From Isoetes taiwanensis (lineage: Eukaryota > Streptophyta > Lycopodiopsida > Isoetales > Isoetaceae), in assembly GCA_021234155.1 (NCBI GenBank), contig JAJEKV010000273.1, forward strand, positions 372,001 through 436,000: DNA of 64,000 nt, given 5' to 3'. Made by a program: the position numbers and the translations under genes. Below the pieces are notes generated by a model. It saw only the letters and a list, made by a program, of their open reading frames with translations. It made no database searches and was not told the DNA's origin. Numbering within the stretch: position 1 is the stretch's first letter; each line of letters begins with the position of its first letter. Positions 35,121 through 57,590 of the stretch are shown here, piece by piece.

Positions 35121-35700
35121 CTAGAACGATTTTCTCAAGGTCCCCGTCAATTTCCCTGTCCGATCAAGTTGCGGGTATAGTGTTGTTTGTATATCTTGGA
35201 CCGCTTTGCCCGAAGCTATTTCTTGCATGACACCAATGAAGCTTAGCGAGAAAATCATCTGTGGTAACCATATCGGGGATGATGGGATGGTGGATTTAGT
35301 GACTGTGGACTGATTGAAGCAACACTTCAAAGCGTCATCATCAACTATAATGATGCCTTCCTTCTCCCGAAGCGCCCAAGTCATCCATCATGTCGCTCAA
35401 GCATTTCACAAATATATTCTTACCGACGGATCCTTCGGGTTTTAAATGACTTACATTTGCTCGATCCCAAACAGATGCCCAATCTCTATGTAATTCAGAA
35501 CTACTCTCAAAACTTCCTGTATATTTCTATTCTCCATCGACGACCAAATTGCACAACGAAATAAAGTGAAAGCTTGGTCTAACATCTCCTTCAGATACGG
35601 CCACGGATATTCCCATTTCGTACGTGTCTCAAATGGTTTCTGTGCATACCATGATAGGTCGAATGTTGCTTTAGGTAACGTTTTGCAGAGCACTCCCTAT
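35121..35700 (-). pseudogene. FCP1/NIF-like (CTD phosphatase-type HAD) domain fragment, copy 1
   Basis: One exon (about 35649-35455, acceptor CACAG/AAACC, donor AAAT/GTAAGT) encodes WPYLKEMLDQAFTLFRCAIW then SSMENRNI. This matches the RPGLxEFLxxxxxxFDVAIWSS region of FCP1-like phosphatases. Downstream, 35384-35121 encodes GIIIVDDDALKCCFN, matching their LLVDDxxYKxxLN motif. The first catalytic motif (DxDxT/V) is not seen, and a foldback element abuts the 5' side at 35697. The order and spacing resemble the better preserved domain at 53.5-53.1 kb. Intron borders show it was once a spliced gene. Confidence 0.65.
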
Positions 35701-46869: not shown

Positions 46870-48825
46870 CATGCAACAAGCTAAAGAAAGTACCCTAATG
46901 ATGGTCCTCAAGGAAAGGAAAAATCCCCAAATGATGCAGATGATGCCCAAGGAAAGGAAAAGACACCCAAGGATGATGCCCAAGGGAAGAATAATGTCAA
47001 AGAAAAGGATGATGCAAAAGGAAAAGAAATTGTACTTTATAATCGAGTCGATTGGAAAAACAAGAAGGTCAACATCTTGCATGAATGCAACAGAGAGGTA
47101 GTAGGAGAAGGGATTATTATTCTAGCAGATCCTATCAATGCAGTCAATGATCAAAGATTAGGGGGAGGATAGGTTAGGTGTGGCAATCTCAAAATTATAT
47201 GACAATTGGAAGAAAAAGGGGTCGCAAAGAGGAATGCCTTGCTTGTGTGAAGCAACTAGAGGTTGCAATGATTGTGGCATGGCCTAGGCAATGTATCCAA
47301 TTGAGAAAAACTACATGTTTCCTATGGATGCGAAAACATTGTCAATAAGGTTTACACAATGTAGCAAGAGGCCACTTCCATCTTTCAAACATTATCCCAC
47401 CAAAAGGTGCAAGTCAGATTATGATTGTTCTCCTGAAGCTATGATGAAGGTTAGAGGAGGTGAATGTTGTTGGGCCTCTTGTGTTAGAATGTTCACAATA
47501 GAGGAGTTGGTGGGAGCAAGAGCTACATATCAAGAACATAAGTGTGATAGTAGGAGAAATTTCATGTACACCATATTTGGCTATGCAATTCGGGATGAAA
47601 GATCGAAGAAAAAAAGATTTCCATTGAACGAAAAGTGGATATGTTCGAAAAGCATGGATGGCTATACATGGAATTCCAACCTCTTCCTCGCCACAACCGG
47701 CAAAAGAGACATGAAAATGGAACTAGAATTGCATTGCATGGGAACACCGCCAAAGAAAGACCAACCTCTAGGACTATAGCCGCAAAGGAAATATTTGAAA
47801 CGTATGTGGAGTTCAATGCAAAAAAAAAAAAAAAAAACATGCCACATAAGAGTAAGAAGGATGAACAGTGGTAGAGTTGTTGTTGAGAAGAGATTGCCAT
47901 CCCATTGTACCCTAAGAGCATACTAGAGGAAACAAATGCATTGCTTCTGAACTTGAGTAGCCTCTATATCCACCCAGTTTTTAGTAGGCTATGGAATAAG
48001 CATTTCAAGCATGTGACCATAGCAACTTTAAACAACTTTGCAAAGTGCAATTTGTGTGCTAAGTCAAGGAGACTTTTGATAAGACTGTGCAACCAAGTCT
48101 AAGGGGCTAAGATAAGGGAACACATGAAGGACCATATGATCGATCAACTATCATGTAGATCAACTTACTAGATGTGGAGGACCTTATCCGCAATGGAACC
48201 TAATAACTATCTATGTATTATACATGACAAGATGGACCAAACAAAAGACTTGTCTTCCACAATTCAAGTACATACCAAAGTCATGTGGAAGATCATACCC
48301 GTTGGTGATTTCAATGACAGGGCAATCTTGCATGGCTTTTGGCCTCAAACCTACTATGGGCATTACAGGTTGGGAGTTGTGGAGGATGGTCCAGATTTTC
48401 ATATTGGGAGTATCATGAGGTGTTTAAGAAACTATGAGAATGGTTACAATGGTTACCTCAGGGACCCTACGACTAGCCACCACTACATAGTGCATTGTTG
48501 GATGGAAACCGAATAATATTGAAAAAGTTTAGCAAGGCAAGGTTTAGGAGGCATGGACCTAATGAACATGTTGGAGCTTCAACATCTGGGTGCTAAACCT
48601 CGGGATCTCGCCAGAAGGTTGCTCTTGCAACTTGATAACCGCTTCGGCCAAAAAAGAAGAACAGTGGATGTTTTTCTTTCTTATCCTACTTAACACCGTG
48701 GGCATTTTGAAAGAGTTAATTTGGGGTTTCTAATGCCGGGACATACTTATGAGGATGTGGATGCATTATTTGGAAAATATAGTCATGTTTTGAGACAGCA
48801 GACAGTGACCAACTTTCCTAGGGAT
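46870..48825 (+). pseudogene. Transposon-encoded protein, 5' and central part (DKMDQ / QLDN / GHTxEDVD)
   Basis: Plus-strand pieces in shifting frames read: an acidic/basic Lys-rich stretch (46900-47030); VVGEGIIILADPINAVNDQR (about 47098-47157); a Cys-containing block (47291-47640); HFKHVTIATLNNFAKCNLCA (about 48002-48061); YLCIIHDKMDQTK (about 48207-48246); LLLQLDNRFGQ (about 48620-48652); and FLMPGHTYEDVDALF (48727-48771). DKMD, QLDN and GHTxEDxD in this order mark a catalytic-looking core found in many transposon-like genes of mosses and algae (I believe the family Pfam lists as DUF7869). Many stops and frameshifts show it is dead. It breaks off after NFPRD at 48825, and the C-terminal part resumes at 55965. 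Confidence 0.7.
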
Positions 48826-49319
48826 CTAAGTTAGATATTAGTACAAAAGCACCCGTCGGACCGACGCTACTTTTTCGTGCTTGGTCCTTGTGCTTGGAGG
48901 TGCTTGGAGAGCGGGAATGCGATGATCCATTTTAGCAAATTGCTTGGGATCGATGAGATGGCTACCCGAAAATCAAATTCGTACATAATCAATTTGGCGG
49001 GGTTGTTGTGAGATGGCATGGAGAGTGAATAGATTTGGCAATGGCGGGAAGCATGATCCTGTTGTACCCCCTGAAACGTATTTTTTTGCAAAGACGGTTT
49101 CTCAGACAACACAATTCCCCACGACAACACGATTCTAAATGGATCAATCAAAGATCGATTTAGATGAAGAAAAGCGACTTCAAATTTTCCGGAAATTCAA
49201 GTCGAGAGAAGAAGGCAATCTAGACAGAGAGGAAAAGAGATAGGGGAGGGGAGAAAGAAAATATCCAAACCTCAAATTGACAAACGGCTTGAGGCGAGAA
49301 GGTTTCAAGAATTGTCCAA

Positions 49320-52200
49320 GAATTTGACGATTATTTCAATAATATCACAAAGCCTTTGAAAGAAGGGGATAAGGCACCGGTGGTGCATGATTTGTGAAGA
49401 GAGTTAAGAAGAAATTGCCACCGAGGTGGATTTTGTTGATCATGATCAAAGCAAGGTCATGAAGAATGTAATTAGAAATGTTCAAGAGACACTCAATCAA
49501 AGAAAAGAAACTAAGGAAGACAGATATAATGCAAGCAAGAAAGTCCACATTGCAAATGGTATCTTCAACAAAGAAACAAAACCAACCAACCGGCAGCTGT
49601 TTTGCGCCTCGCTCATGTATCAAGAAAAATCTGTCGCAGCGAACCTTAAGAAGAGTAATGAAACAAAGAACAAGAATGTGGTCCGTGGTCAATGTTTTCA
49701 AGGAAAAAGAGATCGATGCAATAACCGATGAGGTTAAGAATTGCTCGTTTACAAGTTCGACAGAAAACACAAGAGTCTCACCATACAGAAGCATGTGAGA
49801 AAGTTTGTTACAAAAAGATGGTGAAAAAATTGATCATCCAATACAACCGCTTGAAATTTCAGGTAATTTTTATGCTTTATATGTTTTACCGCTTTGTTCT
49901 CGCTTTTACTATATTGCTGCTTTTAATTTTTTTTGGAACTCAGATTTGCTTTGTTTATAGTTGCAATTTTACATGGCATTCAAAAAGGAATTCAATGAAA
50001 TGAAGATTTCACACACAAGACATTTGAATTGTCAAGCCATCTTTTTGTGAGGCGCTTAAAAGAAAGAGAGAGTCGCCAATATCACATGCACTTTGAGTAT
50101 GTGATGCAAGCACTCAACAAAATCGTAATCAGATCCAAATGGGGTGCACAAAGAATGCAATTGTAATTGTGTTTGTTTGTGGTGGTGGTAACTTCTCAGA
50201 GTGCCAAGAACCATGTTTATAAATCCACTAGTGATTTTTGAGGCAAATGGGTCCGCCCCTAAAGAAGAAGATGAAGAATGGCACAAACATCAATGTCCGT
50301 AGGTTGGCATGCAAAGATTGTGGGCTGAAAAGGTACTCTTAAGTTTGTCTCTTCAATGTTATGATGTTTAAAGATATTACCGCCAAGAACTTTAATTGTG
50401 GTGTTCTAAACAGTTTGCTTTTTGTCCTAAGGAGAAGATGGAAACCGATTACAAGGTGGAGTGGAAACAGTTTGAAAAGGTATTCTGTTTGGCTTTAATT
50501 AAATTGTGCTTTCGTTTAACATTCTTTTTAAACAAACCGCAAACCGATTTAAAATGTTCATGGTCCCAAATCAGCAAGAAGTTGGATACATGAAGGAGAC
50601 TACCAAGAAAAAATGGGAGGGAGGAAACCAACCAAAGTAACAAGACTTGCATACAAGAACTAGAGTCCGCCTGAAGTTCATGAAGCATGCCAACAAGACA
50701 ATGGTATAATTTGTCACACACAATTATGTGGCATAATCGACAGTGCAAAGCAATTCAGGACGTGTTTGGATACCTTTCCTGAAGATGCAATTGTCTCTAT
50801 AATTGACTTTGCTGAAAATTACAGTTTTAAAATTCAGAGGGAGGCACAATCTTGCCACTGGCACACGGACCCAGCCTCAATTCTCCGGGTTCTATATCAC
50901 ATATAGACATGCAAACCCAAGCCGAGATAGAGGAGATGGAAGTTAAAGAGGCAGAGCAAAGAGAAGCAGAGCGGGATAAGTCGAAAAGAAAGAAGAAGAC
51001 AAGTCGAGATCATCAAAGACCAATCAGAGGAGAATTATAAAGGAAGTGCAATTTTATATTTCAGATGATGTGGAGCATAGCAATCGAAGTTTGTACAACA
51101 TTGCTTGAAAGTACATCGCCGATCGGGCTTAGAGCACGCAACATTGAGTACAAGAAACATATTTTTGGAGTGATGGTTGCACATCCCGGTTTAAAGGAGC
51201 AAGGCCTTTCCGGTATTTAGGAAGGAACTATGTGTGTAGTGAAGGAATTGAGTATGAGTGGAATTTCTTTTGCCAGTTCTCATGGCAAAGGAGAACATGA
51301 TGGACAAGGTGCAATATTGAAAAGGGTTTTGGCAAGAGAGCAATTGAAGTATGAGTCCGGAAATTGAGCGTGCCAAAGACATTGTCGATTTCATGAACGG
51401 TACATGATGAACAATCCACCGAACCCTCATATATAAGAAGGTAAATTCTTGTTTTTTCTTATATTTTTCTTAGATTTGAAGTTGCATGAATCTGTTTTTA
51501 TATTGCAGGTTCTTTTTGGCATATTGATCCCCAAAAGTGTAGACAAATCTGAAAGGAAGGAGTGGAAAACGTTACATTGGGAGCTCTAAACTTCATTGCA
51601 TCGCACCATGTGACAAAAAAGAACCCACAAAGTTGCTTACAGTGTGCCTCTCTTGCTATTGTTCCTATTGCTTTCATGGTAAAAGGGATTACCGAACAAA
51701 GCACGCTTTGGGAGCATGGCTCCTGCAGAATCGAACCAAAGGTTGTCAAGAAACATCCACAAAGAATTAGTCGAGGAGGAAGAAGAAGAAGATGAAGAAG
51801 AAGAAGATGAAGAAGAAGAAGAAGAAGAAGAAGTAGATTACCTTAGTTCTCTTCTAGAAGTTGGAGATAACTTTGTTTGTAAATGCACATCCGTAAAATG
51901 AAGAGGGAGTTGACTTTTTTTATGTTCTTAGGTGTACAGAGACTAAAACACATTGTTAGATGCATATGAAGATGCTTGGGGTAACGTGCATTTGGTGTAG
52001 GAGAAGTTATAGTTTCTCGCCATTACTACAAGCAAACAGATGCACTCCAATTTGAGTTGCTATTGGACAAGCCGGTTGCTAGTTTGTATAGCCACCCTTT
52101 ATGTGTGAAGTTTGATATGGAGAATCTTGGTAACAACATTTTCAAGATGAGTGAAGAGACATGCCAAAAAGTTATGGCATCCCTTCTAGTAGAGTGCTAA
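49320..52200 (+). pseudogene. DDE-type transposase-like gene of the 7.1 kb element
   Basis: Pieces in changing frames carry IIDFAENYSFKIQREAQSCH then W (about 50799-50862), YFWSDGCTSRFKGARPF (about 51160-51210) and ASSHGKGEHDGQGAILKR (about 51272-51325). DFAENY, SDGCxxxFK and HGKGEHDGxGAxxKR in this order form the core of a transposase-like protein I recall from plant and animal repeats; acidic residues in the first two are candidate catalytic positions. Upstream pieces at 49426-49800 are Lys-rich. The C-terminal part ends in a long Glu/Asp run (51777-51832) and a piece near 52020-52200. Intron-like GT-AG gaps occur (for example 49862-49944). Frameshifts and stops make this copy inactive. Confidence 0.7.
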
Positions 52201-52967
52201 TTTCACGCCCGCTTTTTTCTGCTTTTTTGCTTCAAGAAGCGAGGTTGAGTTTTTAGATGTGTAATCGGCCGCTTTCCCGCCATATTCTTTCTTATATTCT
52301 TTATAATTGTTATCAATGAAAACTAACAAATTCTTTGCTCGCACAAATGTTCCTTGTCCTCACAGCTTTAAAAAGAAAAGCTCGATGGGTCCTTTTCATG
52401 CTTATGCTTTGTCACATGCTTGCTACGTTTTTGCTAACTATTACGTAATTTGATGAACTTCCGAAAATGACTTGATGGACATGGAAAACAGATTGCAAGT
52501 TTACAAATGAACAAAGTTTACACAAGTGTAGGTAAATGCCCCAAAACATTGAATTTACATTAATATCCGTTTACATACAAAAGTGTACAATTTATGTACT
52601 CATATCCAAGATTCACAAAAGAAATAATTTATAACTTAAGTTACATCTTAAGTTACATGAAGTTCTTAAAGTTCAAAGATCTTCAATGTTCTCAAAGTCA
52701 ATATCTTCAATGTGGGTCTGATCTTGTGTTATTTCTTCTCTTGCGGTTCCTCCCTGTTTATCGGTATCTTCAATGTTGGTACGATCAAGGTATCTTCAAT
52801 GTGTTCAAGATCGGAGATGGAGAAATACGTGGTTGTGTCTTCTTTGCAGGTTCATCCAATTTTTCAACACCAACAATATCTTTCATCAATTGCATGCTTC
52901 CTCAATTGCTGCTCTCCATCTTGCAAGTTCTTTCAAGTGGTCAACAAGAGCTTGAGTATGTTGATGT

Positions 52968-53570
52968 CTACTTCCTTGACCACATCAACATGAAGGTTTG
53001 CAACCACTTTTGAGGATTCTTTGAATGAAGCCAAATTAATTGCAAACATGCTTTTATGTAGTTGAATACCTTATCATTTTCTTCATTGTCGAAGCTCTCA
53101 ACTATTAAGCGTGTAATGCGGTGGGGACAAGAAAGTCTTGTACAAAGAGTCATCCACAAGCACAACATCACGTACATCATTAAAAGCGCGGTAAACTTTG
53201 ACAATTGGCTTCATAAAATACCGGGTTTGGTTGCATTTCTGGAAACATAAAAGGCATTGCCTCACACTCATTTCGACCCCATATGAATTTGAATTTAGCA
53301 ATGTAGTGTCTTTGGCGGAATCACATTAAGGATTTGTATGATGTTGTGCTTCATCATGCTAGACCAAATCTCAACTTCAAATCTTTCAAAACTCAATCCA
53401 AGAACTCTTGTAAAAGGTCGCAAATAACCACTTTCCCTGTCTTGTGTAATACTTCTTGAGCCACGTGGAATCTTTAATCTTGCTCCTTTTTGGAAGGTGT
53501 TGACCAAAACTCCATTAATGTCTAAGATGACAAGTTTTTTCTTTTCTAAATCCTCTGCAACATTCATAAG
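52968..53570 (-). pseudogene. FCP1/NIF-like (CTD phosphatase-type HAD) domain, copy 2
   Basis: The minus strand from 53567 reads KKLVILDINGVLVNTFQKGA, then YLRPFTRVLGLSFERFEVEI and WSSMMKHNI. After a frame change it reads VLVDDSLYKTFLSPPHYTLN (about 53160-53101). These are the first catalytic motif, the RPxxxxFL...WSS block and the VDDxxxK motif of FCP1-like HAD phosphatases. The usual DxDxT/V is DINGV here: the second Asp, the general acid, is replaced by Asn, so catalysis may be lost or altered. At least one frameshift separates the halves. It forms the C-terminal end of the accessory gene in the 7.1 kb transposon. Confidence 0.75.
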
Positions 53571-55400
53571 AAAAGAATCTTAAACATCAACATGACAATA
53601 GTTAAAGAATTACAGAAATTACAATATTAAAACAGAAAACAGAATTAAAGAAAACAGTGATTAATTAAAGAAAACCAAATTACATTCAAACAATGTTCTC
53701 AAACAACATAAAACAAGTAAAACAGTATTTCACATACACCACAATATGTTATGTTCTGAAACTAACTCAATGACTTGATATACTGAGAAACAGAACCTGA
53801 ACTACCATTTAACATTTTCAAAATAATATCAACTTGATCACCTATTTGCTTTGGTGCTTGAGGTGGCAGCTTCTTTGAGGGTCTCCCAATCTTCTTTTTG
53901 TTCTTTGTTGTTGCTACCTCCATTTCAACTGCTGCTTCACCCTTATCCTTACCTTTCTCAACAGCATCTTCAGCAACTGCAGCAGCAACATCATCTTCAT
54001 TTGCTTGTTCTTCATCACTGCTTACGTGAACATCTACATGCGCAGCAGTAGAACTTTCTCCTGCAGTTGCACTCCTCAACCTGGTCTTTATGCCAATTGT
54101 AGTAACCTTTTGCACAGGTTGTTCATAATATTCTTCTGAACTGCTCTCAACAACACGTGAACGTTTTATCCTTTTTTTTGCTGGCCCCTTACTAAGCTGA
54201 ATTACAGAACTTTGCTGCTTAGAACACAAATCAATTTAAATGAGATTAAGTTAGTTAAAACACAAATAAGAAATATCGAAGTCTTACCTTATGCAAAGCT
54301 TCTACAGCTTTCCTTACTGGACTTGGTGACACTTGAGCATCAGCAGTAGAACCAACATTTTTTGGTGACTCAGAAGCAGGTGAAGCCACAGGTGCCACAG
54401 GTGCTTTATTAAATAATAAAGCAGGTGAAGCCACAGGTGTGAGAACATTGGAAAACTTATCAGGTGAAGCAAATGCACTAGTAGTGCCTACCTCAAATGC
54501 ACTTTTGCTGAATATGCAAGTCTTCTTCACCTGCAACCTCTAGACCAAGTTCCACAAAAACTTCCCTGGGAACTTCCTTCAAACACCTGAAGCATGTCTT
54601 CTTTTCATACAAAAGCATGCAGCATGTCAAGTGATAGACATGTTCACATGGTAATGCCATACTCAATTTATATTTTGGATTGAAGACCAATCCACATGCA
54701 AAGACATGCATCTTCCATGAAACCAGGGCAACCTCGCTTTTCATAGTTATGATAGACATTTTGATATATCCGAGTCCATCAATTGTCTAAAGCTTCTAAA
54801 TATTTCCCGCTTTCAGAATCGAATTCCAAATTGAAGTTTTTAATCTTTCCTTCTTTTCCTTCTCTGTAATGCTTCAACACTAACCTTTGGAAGGCAAGCC
54901 TCGGGTTTAGAGCAAAAATATATTTCACCACTTATTTTGCCTTTAACTCTTCAATCGCTTCAGTCTCCATCATTCTTGTGCCTTTGGCATTCAAAGCGCA
55001 TAACTCATTCTCCATTCTTGCTATCTCGTTCCTTTTAAGCTCAATCATCCTCTCTTCCCTTGCTAAAGAGTTCTTATCTACCTCAATGGTACTAATTATT
55101 TTTACCGGATCGGTTTGTACGGGTTGTTCAAACTGTTTCCAACTTACTAACCTCCTCTTCAATCAAAGAAATGTTGAAACTTAAATTGGAAACAGAAAAC
55201 TTCGGAGAGACTGACCGCTTTCCCCTTAAATTCAAGTTGAGGCGTTGATCCGCCTGGGCTCTGAGGTGTACTTTGGCATGAAGGAACCCAGTAGTTTTGA
55301 TCCTTTTAACATCTTCTTTTTTAACATCAATGTCATCCCTTTTTCTCTGGACCAAACATTAACTTTGTTTCTTGTAAGCATCCCAATCAACCCTATGAGC
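53571..55400 (-). CDS. Accessory gene of the 7.1 kb transposon: coiled coil, RING-like finger, AT-hook-like region
   Basis: In minus-strand order: 55355-54932 has basic and coiled-coil pieces (LKRNEIARMENELCALNAKG). 54759-54493 has a RING-like finger, MALPCEHVYHLTCCMLLYEK then KTCFRCLKEVP, i.e. C-x-H-x2-H-x2-C...C-x2-C after an earlier Cys. 54536-54286 is Ala/Pro/Val-rich. 54210-53762 is Ser/Glu-rich with KKKIGRPSKKLPP (AT-hook-like) and stops at 53762. Plausible splice sites separate the pieces (donor AAG/GTAAGAC near 54286, acceptor TTCTAAGCAG near 54211). The FCP1-like domain at 53567 follows and may be a further exon set. Whether this gene makes a whole protein is unclear; it may be a decayed copy. 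Confidence 0.5.
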
Positions 55401-55964
55401 CTCGGGGTTATGCTCTTCACCGACTACGATTTTTCCCATGCAAATGATAATGCTACTAGCTTCCTCAATTCATTATTCGGGGACACCTCCATCTCCATAC
55501 AAGAAATCGATCAAGCCATCCAATTTTCGGGCTTCAAATAAGGGCGAACAAAGTAGATTTTGATTTTGCCTGAAACCATTGGCTCAGACCAAACTTTGCT
55601 CCCTCATCCCATCCTCAGAGTAACATTTTCCGCCAGCCATTTCAGCTTTTGTCGTGGGATGATTCCTTCACCAGCCATGAGAAAAGAAGATACTTTAAAA
55701 AAGCAGCAAAAGAAACAAAGAGGTCGAGCAAAGCGCCTTGAAGAGGATGATTCAATTTGTAAAATGCCGCGAACCGGAGAAGATGATCGGGACGACATCA
55801 AGTGCAATCGAGGAGCAAATTGGCTGCATAATTCAATTAGTAACAATGAGCGAATAATTACACCTCGACAATCAAAATCATTGTTCACGAAAAAGGCGGC
55901 GAAATCGAAAAGGTGCGTCCGGCCCCGCTTAGCGAAGCTTTTTGTACCCCAATATCTAACTTAG

Positions 55965-56901
55965 ACCCGCTACTAGAAATATTCCATGGATGCACTACTC
56001 CATCTCCTATAGGATCTCTCATAGAAGAGGTGCCTGATTGGAAGAGTTTTGTGGAAGGTTATACTGAAGACATGGAAGGCCATTCTAGACATCTTCAATT
56101 CACTTTTTGGGTGAGAGATGGGATTCCAATCATGCAATGGAAGATGAGACCTTCAGAGGAGAAGTGGAGAGGAGGGGCAGAAAAGAGATGCGCATGGCAA
56201 GCCTATGATACCTCCATGTCAACCAAAAGCTCTAAAACCTACTACAGAAGTGAAGCAAGTGGGATTGACCCTGGATGGCATCAATGACTATATCAAGCGT
56301 TGGCAAACTAATTCTGATGACACTAATCGTGCATTGATAGATTATGGAAGCGGTGTGATTAACTTGTTGGATGAGGTAGACACATCCTTAGAAGAATTGA
56401 TCAAGGGTGGCTCCCAAAAGCGGTGGAGGACATTAGCAGTCTTTGAGGGAAGATGATGGCACTATTAGTAGCATTGTTAAGGCCCATGCTCCTTCTCAAT
56501 CTGACAAACACTATGTTGGTCCTAAGAAAGATAGGCCAAAATATCTAGGCCTAGATGTTTATGAACCAGCAACTGACGTGGAGTGCCACCAATTTGTGGT
56601 AGTAAAACCAGCAGATTTAGAGACCTATCCGGTGTGGTTGGGATACACCATCTCAGATATTTGCAAAGAAGAAGGTGATGTTAACTTCAATAAGGTGCGT
56701 GTGGAATGGTGGTGTCCAGTGCACCAGTTGACTAATGTCACCGATAAAGAAAGATATTCAGATTGTTGGACAAAGAGGTGGAGGAGAAATCCTAGTGGTC
56801 CCGATCTTTGGCTAGACATTGAAAGTATTATTGTACCTCGTGGACTCCAAAAACTATTCCAAGTAAAACAAATAGAGAGTTACAATACCTCGAGGATGTA
56901 A
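55965..56901 (+). pseudogene. Transposon-encoded protein, C-terminal part (continuation of 46870-48825)
   Basis: Pieces read EVPDWKSFVEGYTEDMEGHS then RHLQFTFWVRDG (about 56025-56123), a second block at 56256-56450, and VVVKPADLETYPVWLGYTIS then VRVEWWCP (about 56596-56723), up to the stop at 56899. The phrases GHSxxxxFxF and YPxWLGxxxxx...VxWW are what I expect after the GHTxEDVD core in this family. The 7.1 kb between the two parts is a foreign insertion bounded by inverted repeats. Two frame breaks occur inside this part. Confidence 0.65.
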
Positions 56902-57590
56902 GGAATAAGGTTCTCATATCCTTGGAGATCTTTGGTGGAAAAATGAAAAACTATGTAAATATGTTTTCTACATTACTATGTATCAATCACAGTTAATAAA
57001 AGTTGTTTCATGATATATGATGTTGTAATTTGAAGTTAAGGTGTGAATTTATATTAAGGTGTGTGATTATATGTTAATGTATAGTGACTTTTATCAAGTT
57101 ACTAAAAAATTGCAATATGAAATTTGTCCCAAAATCAAGACATAATCCCAATTTAATTGAATGATGGTTTATATACCGGTAGGTGAAGGGACACCTGAGA
57201 GCGAATGGACATCCCTTCCAAGGCTTGCTTGTGTGAGATGCTTTCTGTTAGAAGAAAGGATCTAAACCCTTAGTATGTAAAATGGAATTGGGGCAGGATC
57301 TCTTTAGTACAAAGCAGGTAGGATGATGCTCCGAGGTCTAGTTAACGCGTGAGAATGATATTGGCTCCTTGATGCTCTTGCCTGTTGCACATATTTTTGG
57401 CGGTGGTGAGCTTCAGATGGCTACGATCTCAAATCTTAGAGTGACCTCTGCTTTCTTTCCAGCTGAAAAGAATGATACATTATCCTTGGATTTATAGTCT
57501 TGGACTAATGAGCTCCCAATGAATATCTGGTAGACCATTGTACTTAAATATTTTCTATATAGAGCACAAAATCTCAAGATATCAGGCATG
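56902..57590. other. 3' flank of the transposon gene, with the dispersed 36-bp repeat at 57138-57173
   Basis: AT-rich and non-coding at first. AGACATAATCCCAATTTAAT...GATGGTTTATA at 57138-57173 is repeated in inverted orientation at about 34222-34262. The stretch 57180-57590 leads into LINE ORF1 and may include its 5' part in broken frames. Confidence 0.45.

Follow-up and report, generated by a model that had tools for sequence, protein, structure and literature searches.

The window analysed here (64,000 nucleotides of the genome of Isoetes taiwanensis; contig JAJEKV010000273.1, positions 372,001 to 436,000, or G000:C656:372001-436000 in our coordinates) contains, at positions 48822-55968, one decayed member of a multicopy DNA transposon family, 7.1 kb long and with terminal inverted repeats (TIRs) of about 30 bp (GGGTCTAAGTTAGATATT). 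This is a dead copy of a once autonomous cut-and-paste element, with frameshifts in both genes; the better copies encode, on the plus strand, a transposase with the motifs DFAENY, SDGC and HGKGEHDG and, on the opposing strand, an accessory region with an N-terminal helical part, a coiled coil, a RING-H2 domain and a NIF domain. Judged by sequence, at least three diverged transposon families in this one genome belong to the same clade and share this two-gene layout. The reading that we favour, with moderate confidence, is that of a Sola-like clade in which the convergent region of helical, coiled-coil, RING-H2 and DxNG-type NIF modules acts as an accessory or anti-silencing factor. The features of the window copy are as follows.

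48822-48839, plus strand: left TIR, GGATCTAAGTTAGATATT (GGGTCTAAGTTAGATATTGGGGTACAAAA in most other copies)
49487-49900, plus strand: N-terminal part of the transposase (Tp1 of copy L029), frameshifted; tblastn E 3.9e-11
50129-50296, plus strand: Cys-rich piece of the transposase (Tp2); tblastn E 4.4e-4
50581-51352, plus strand: catalytic region of the transposase (Tp3); tblastn E 2.4e-33
about 50805-50822, 51169-51180 and 51281-51304, plus strand: the Tp3 motifs DFAENY, SDGC and HGKGEHDG, respectively
51897-52185, plus strand: C-terminal part of the transposase (Tp4); tblastn E 6.0e-16
53098-53579, minus strand: NIF (FCP1/dullard-like HAD) exon in two broken frames, motif I reading LDINGV, with an acceptor-like TTGCAG close to the start of the exon
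53762-54235, minus strand: open frame of the linker with the AT-hook-like KKKIGRPSKK, a motif of subfamilies A and B only
54535-54699, minus strand: RING-H2 of the accessory region, first Cys pair damaged in the window copy; tblastn E 1.8e-9
54932-55162, minus strand: coiled-coil-like open frame of the accessory region; the corresponding segment of L029 is predicted to form a coiled coil
55433-55786, minus strand: N-terminal helical module of the accessory region; tblastn E 6.3e-10 to L029 residues 69-186
55951-55968, minus strand: right TIR, from end comparison, copy alignment and a check of the target site duplication
47801-48821, plus strand: left flank, part of another repeat that was the insertion target; genome search and flank comparison
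55969-57200, plus strand: right flank, continuation of the same target repeat; flank comparison

The element and its relatives in the genome

The searches covered 1,658,258,908 bases in 1110 contigs. The matching inverted ends noted earlier from the window alone were confirmed (94% complementarity across 18 bases), with the true termini lying 4 bases further out than was first proposed. At no more than one mismatch, the end pattern occurs genome-wide 371 times in forward and 394 times in reverse orientation, compared to 220 and 200 for a reversed control, and the end pairs among the 100 places listed are spaced by about 7.1-8 kb, 3.5-4.3 kb or 0.26 kb. Sixteen copies were retrieved, 11 full-size (7.1-8.0 kb) and 5 short, and further end pairs of like spacing exist. 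An exact target site duplication (TSD) of 4 bp was found at 13 of the 16, with none at 3, 5 or 6 bp and one at 2 bp. The TSD of the window copy is not intact (CCTAG on the left, GCTA on the right); the target is uninterrupted in both related flanks that were read (L034 and L035), and the break in the window falls exactly at the element. The target repeat itself (window 47801-48821 and 55969-57200; best 40 of 1718 candidates) comes with a GHTYEDVDALFGKYS-like protein. The five short derivatives (0.27-4.3 kb) align to the window element near the ends only; L018 and L019 are 270-base non-autonomous derivatives resembling miniature inverted-repeat transposable elements, with the same ends and an exact 4-bp TSD.

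All 11 further full-size copies match both genes, aligning to both halves of the window element. Five of them (L005-L009) were picked for an internal NIF match and six (L010-L014 and L020) by end spacing alone; these six, chosen blind to NIF, all have both genes. The copies fall into subfamily A (L005-L009 and L011; 83-90% identity to the window element) and subfamily B (L010, L012-L014 and L020; 70-78%). The same layout with different TIR sequences was found in family C (L026, L029 and L030) and family D (L024 and L025), where 4-bp TSDs are present as well (TTAT at L029, ATGA at L024). When single 10-kb copies were searched for TIRs, L025, L026 and L027 yielded none; one end was recognised later in L025 and L026. 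When eight pieces of L029 were used as tblastn queries, they matched collinearly and on opposing strands in the window copy and L009 (subfamily A), L014 and L020 (B), L026 and L030 (C), and L024 and L025 (D), apart from the RING exon in L026 and Tp4 in L025, which remained unmatched. The identity of the NIF domain to that of L029 drops from 67% in L026 through 46% in L030 and 42-45% in subfamily B to 31-33% in family D, and the identity of the transposase core declines in about the same order, with the exception of L030 (79%). Beside the family C element L030, a minus-strand frame (L030:8123-8431) resembles, by eye, plastid ATP synthase beta.

The two genes are also associated across the genome. 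Each match list used here is limited to its 40-150 top-scoring entries, out of 182 to about 6,900 candidates, and co-location was defined as a transposase within 6 kb of a NIF or RING place. Among the best-scored matches, with 150 transposase rows, a transposase lies near 8 of 150 PF03031 (NIF) places (expected 0.16) and near 17 of 40 places found with the window NIF (expected 0.04); for the RING, it is near 12 of 84 places listed (expected 0.09; 84 of 101 matches were kept after overlapping or adjacent fragments were removed by hand). All of these pairs are convergent. The PF03031 search scored 151 matches from 3263 loose candidates, many of them dispersed and with long open frames, and the best 150 were used, a mixture of host and transposon genes. 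For family D (117 of 124 NIF rows, seven weak fragments having been removed, and the best 150 of 152 transposase rows), a listed transposase is near 44 of the 117 NIF places, 43 of these pairs being convergent (expected 0.13). For annotators, this means that many dispersed PF03031 matches in the genome may be transposon genes and not host phosphatases.

The RING and NIF regions are under purifying selection in family C. The ratio of nonsynonymous to synonymous substitution rates (dN/dS) for the RING exon is 0.29 (0.20-0.42), 0.17 (0.11-0.24) and 0.15 (0.08-0.23), and that for NIF is 0.19 (0.11-0.30), 0.19, 0.32 (0.20-0.51) and 0.15, with dS above 1 in several of these comparisons; further NIF values are 0.35 (0.23-0.53) for L029-L026 and 0.18 (dS 2.6) for L029-L030. 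The transposase core gave 0.19 and 0.09. The close pair L020-L014 of subfamily B gave 1.9 (0.4-3.4), as expected of decaying copies.

Given the presence of both genes in all full-size copies retrieved, their retention in diverged families, their convergence and the purifying selection in family C, the accessory gene region is an integral part of the transposon, as the preliminary description had proposed. That description had also raised the possibility of an older host locus, or a passenger, that merely lies inside the element. Transposons do capture host genes, and the 9 kb read at one place, L036, hold RING and NIF frames but nothing that matches the transposase. The host-bystander reading was nevertheless rejected as extremely improbable: it is contradicted by the 11 copies with both genes, six of them picked blind to NIF, by the occurrence of the region in families with other TIR sequences, by the convergent orientation of 43 of 44 co-located pairs in family D and of all 37 pairs in the other lists (among matches listed; the lists may overlap), and by the selection on RING and NIF in family C.

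Two further places carry related frames. L036 (3874-6835; G000:C1060), with long RING and NIF frames, is possibly a domesticated copy or a deletion derivative. In L037 (4134-7004; G000:C1030), the RING and NIF frames are long as well; the NIF exon contains one stop codon, and the transposase match covers 53 residues only.

The NIF and RING domains

In the window, the NIF domain is split between two collinear frames on the minus strand, 53295-53579 (profile positions 1-77, E 0.0041, 17.2 bits) and 53098-53325 (positions 85-126, E 0.019, 15.1 bits); both fall under the Pfam cut-off for PF03031 (21.8 bits) because the window copy is frameshifted. The profile search that had been suggested as a check passes this cut-off in L020 (55.8 bits, E 5.8e-15), L025 (72.4 bits), L026 (75.4 bits), L029 (69.5 bits) and L030 (72.3 bits), with E-values of 3.4e-19 to 5.4e-21 in the latter four. 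Of the domains initially proposed for the minus strand, the NIF domain and the RING-like finger are borne out, although both are weak in the window copy, and the plus-strand transposase motifs are readable in the window as described.

The assignment to FCP1 proper did not stand. The motif DxDx(T/V) is the catalytic motif of FCP1-SCP phosphatases, and in HAD phosphatases its second Asp is the acid/base. In every one of the 22 transposon places that were read (15 from subfamilies A and B, with the window counted once, 5 from families C and D, plus L036 and L037), this Asp is replaced by Asn, giving DxNG, compared to DLDxT in all four host NIF genes (the SCP- or FCP1-like L021-L023 and L028). A motif pattern matched 17 records with Asn, including L001 (the place of the window) and L027, which has another layout, and 5 copies that it missed were read separately; in L011, the change extends to the first Asp of motif I. 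In searches against solved structures, a NIF profile of ten rows, which included L027 and the two broken window frames, has UBLCP1 (E 1.6e-11), CTDNEP1 (1.9e-5) and TIM50 (5e-3) as its matches, the first two being the nearest relatives. The curated FCP1 model of NCBIfam, TIGR02250, scored 28.2 bits on L029, with a cut-off of 135.25, and the NCBIfam dullard-like and HAD-IIID models were likewise far under their cut-offs. By these comparisons, the domain is assigned to a divergent NIF/HAD branch, not FCP1 proper.

Given that Asn takes the place of the acid/base Asp, catalysis should be impaired and a binding role appears likelier; phosphatase activity of the transposon NIF domain is doubtful, and its FCP1-like fold is possibly catalytically dead. 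An active FCP1/SCP-type phosphatase that acts on the tail of RNA polymerase II (Pol II) at the element would fit with the NIF scores above the Pfam cut-off in five copies and with the near invariance of D24, W82, K132, D152 and D153 (L029 numbering), which are the motif-I Asp, the motif II Trp, the Lys and the Asp pair. The uniform Asn in the transposon copies, as against Asp in the host genes, and the low TIGR02250 score make such an enzyme improbable.

The RING gave a mixed picture. In the window, it is matched by zf-RING_2 at E 0.011 only; a complete C3H2C3 set of eight ligands is present in 5 of the 17 elements scanned (L006, L024, L025, L029 and L030), which represent three families, while the scores stay under the Pfam cut-off. 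The AT-hook-like GRP that had been noted in the window was found in all 12 copies of subfamilies A and B and in none of the five elements of families C and D; it is therefore confined to these subfamilies and was dropped as a defining feature.

Several further observations concern other NIF-like sequences. At 35496-35600 of the window, on the minus strand, there is a short second NIF-like trace of 34-35 residues with 46-47% identity to the transposon NIF domain. L027 (4381-8427; G000:C1027) is a different multicopy gene in which a DxNGV NIF domain stands beside large open frames that share its strand. One of these frames has a stretch that looks ParB-like by eye and has no Pfam hit; about ten other PF03031 places have the same length of 465 bases and are candidate members of the same family. 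Separately, pieces of the LEAFY DNA-binding domain are dispersed in the genome, with 28 matches in all and both exons present at two places; transposons may have spread them.

Candidate roles of the accessory region

Under the favoured reading, the accessory region would encode one spliced nuclear protein. Its RING would be an E3 ubiquitin ligase, and its NIF domain would mainly bind a phosphorylated partner (the Pol II tail or another nuclear phosphoprotein) and not dephosphorylate it. The targets of ubiquitylation would be the chromatin of the transposon or a host repressor, and this would aid transcription or transposition of the element, much as accessory proteins aid certain other plant transposons. 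The preliminary description had already suggested that transcription or silencing might be affected, which is a reasonable guess. A more specific version, in which the clade's own RING ligase, joined to a pseudophosphatase reader of phosphorylated nuclear proteins, would clear host factors for silencing or elongation from its copies by degrading or displacing them, is in our estimate rather unlikely; if true, it would be a transposon-encoded counter-silencing system of a previously undescribed kind.

A number of results weigh against the favoured reading. The RING of L025 reaches 21.6 bits with a zf-RING_2 cut-off of 27.3, and L029 and L030 have no Pfam RING match at E<=0.1. The transposase found no convincing match in Pfam, NCBIfam or PDB; AlphaFold2 models of its core and of the part comprising the N-terminus, coiled coil and RING are poor (predicted local distance difference test scores, pLDDT, of 43.6 and 56.1), and PDB fold searches with these models gave nothing at E<=0.001. 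No listed transposase lies near 142 of 150, 23 of 40, 72 of 84 and 73 of 117 places in the four comparisons above, copies being often decayed or deleted, and in L036 the RING and NIF frames have no matching transposase within the 9 kb covered. Selection on NIF is weaker in family D (L025-L024: dN/dS 0.49, 0.34-0.79), many wider comparisons are saturated, and selection within subfamilies A and B is not measurable. Finally, the search for a splice donor located none, and by eye the linker frames of subfamilies A and B seem to terminate at aligned stop codons.

The last two points bear on the number of proteins encoded: because of them, RING and NIF could belong to two separate transposon genes. 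In addition to the linker-end stops at the same place in A and B and the unplaced donor, an ATG stands at the start of the NIF exon, both in subfamilies A and B and in part of the family C copies. Splicing is suggested by TTGCAG, which precedes the NIF exon in 8 of 12 copies of A and B, and by an acceptor-like TAG|G whose position and phase are identical in all four family C copies read; moreover, similar residues lie upstream of the NIF-start ATG, and no Met precedes motif I in the NIF frame of L036. On this evidence, we consider two genes a possibility to be entertained tentatively, with one spliced protein as the working assumption.

A comparably tentative alternative is that RING-NIF is a transposition cofactor that binds DNA or helps to assemble a complex, comparable to the Myb-like open reading frame (ORF) of PIF/Harbinger, and not an anti-silencing factor; here the coiled coil would dimerise, the linker would bind DNA, and NIF and RING would be protein-contact modules. 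The integral status of the region in the 11 copies, its selection in family C and the AT-hook in all 12 A and B copies agree with such a role, and plants have two-ORF transposons such as PIF/Harbinger, according to the available portions of one source (PMC10741241). The AT-hook is, however, unmatched in the five scanned elements of families C and D, and the kept RING ligands suggest ubiquitin chemistry.

Accessory genes of transposons reveal the host process that limits the transposon. A RING and a NIF domain that diverged families carry, with purifying selection wherever this was measurable, suggest that the contest is over ubiquitylation and over how a phosphorylated nuclear protein is recognised. 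The open frames of the RING and NIF exons, which are long in L029 and L036, make activity testable.

Comparison with known systems

In the preliminary description, no account of such a combination was known. Among the matches listed in the open-licence literature (titles and abstract openings, for one listing 12 of 4,977, Repbase being outside this scope), we found no transposon with a NIF, FCP1-like or CTD phosphatase domain, CTD being the C-terminal domain (tail) of Pol II. In the available text of a 2026 review on plant gene capture (PMC13317346), a word search for phosphatase, RING, FCP1, Sola, lycophyte and Isoetes gave no match. Within this scope, the pairing of a predicted RING and a divergent FCP1-like fold facing a transposase was not found described.

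The transposase appears Sola-like by its TSD and an apparent three-aspartate (DDD) motif. In L029, the three Asp residues can be read from the sequence as D-x113-D-x40-D, with no structural support from the model or the fold search. In IMG/VR and prokaryote genomes, no relative of the transposase was confirmed, a result of little weight given that each scan consisted of two short peptide patterns. Sola elements have a 4-bp TSD, DDD, TIRs and a length of 2-9 kb and are known from a moss, as stated in the available portions of PMC10741241 and PMC3627910. The elements described here share with them the 4-bp TSD (13 of 16 copies in the window family, and L029 and L024 as well), TIRs and a length within that range (7.1-8.0 kb), and they may share the DDD triad. 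They differ in the RING-NIF gene, none being mentioned for Sola in those portions of the two sources.

A second enzyme gene beside a DDD/E transposase is not without precedent. HarbingerS is reportedly a DNA transposon with a SET domain. Fungal DNA transposons carry TET/JBP (PMC12730594), and KolobokP carries a His-Me finger nuclease (PMC9587614), according to the parts of these papers that were available, in which a word search for phosphatase gave no match. In all three, the enzyme differs from RING-NIF.

A parallel in the suggested role is VANC, which is not known to contain a RING or a NIF domain. VANC is the anti-silencing protein of a plant transposon, VANDAL, itself, as described in the accessible text of PMC10398659, and it is this role that is proposed here for RING-NIF. 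A phosphatase also features in host silencing: PP7L is a PPP-type enzyme. The transposon-related plant mobile domain proteins MAIN and MAIL1 work with PP7L in silencing, in the available excerpts of PMC7156037 and PMC5418596; these are proteins of the host, whereas the NIF domain described here is part of a transposon. In orchids, Gypsy elements carry an m6A RNA demethylase, as presented in the accessible part of PMC9289625, and are thus, like the elements analysed here, plant transposable elements with an added regulatory domain, although they are long terminal repeat retrotransposons and the domain is of the AlkB type.

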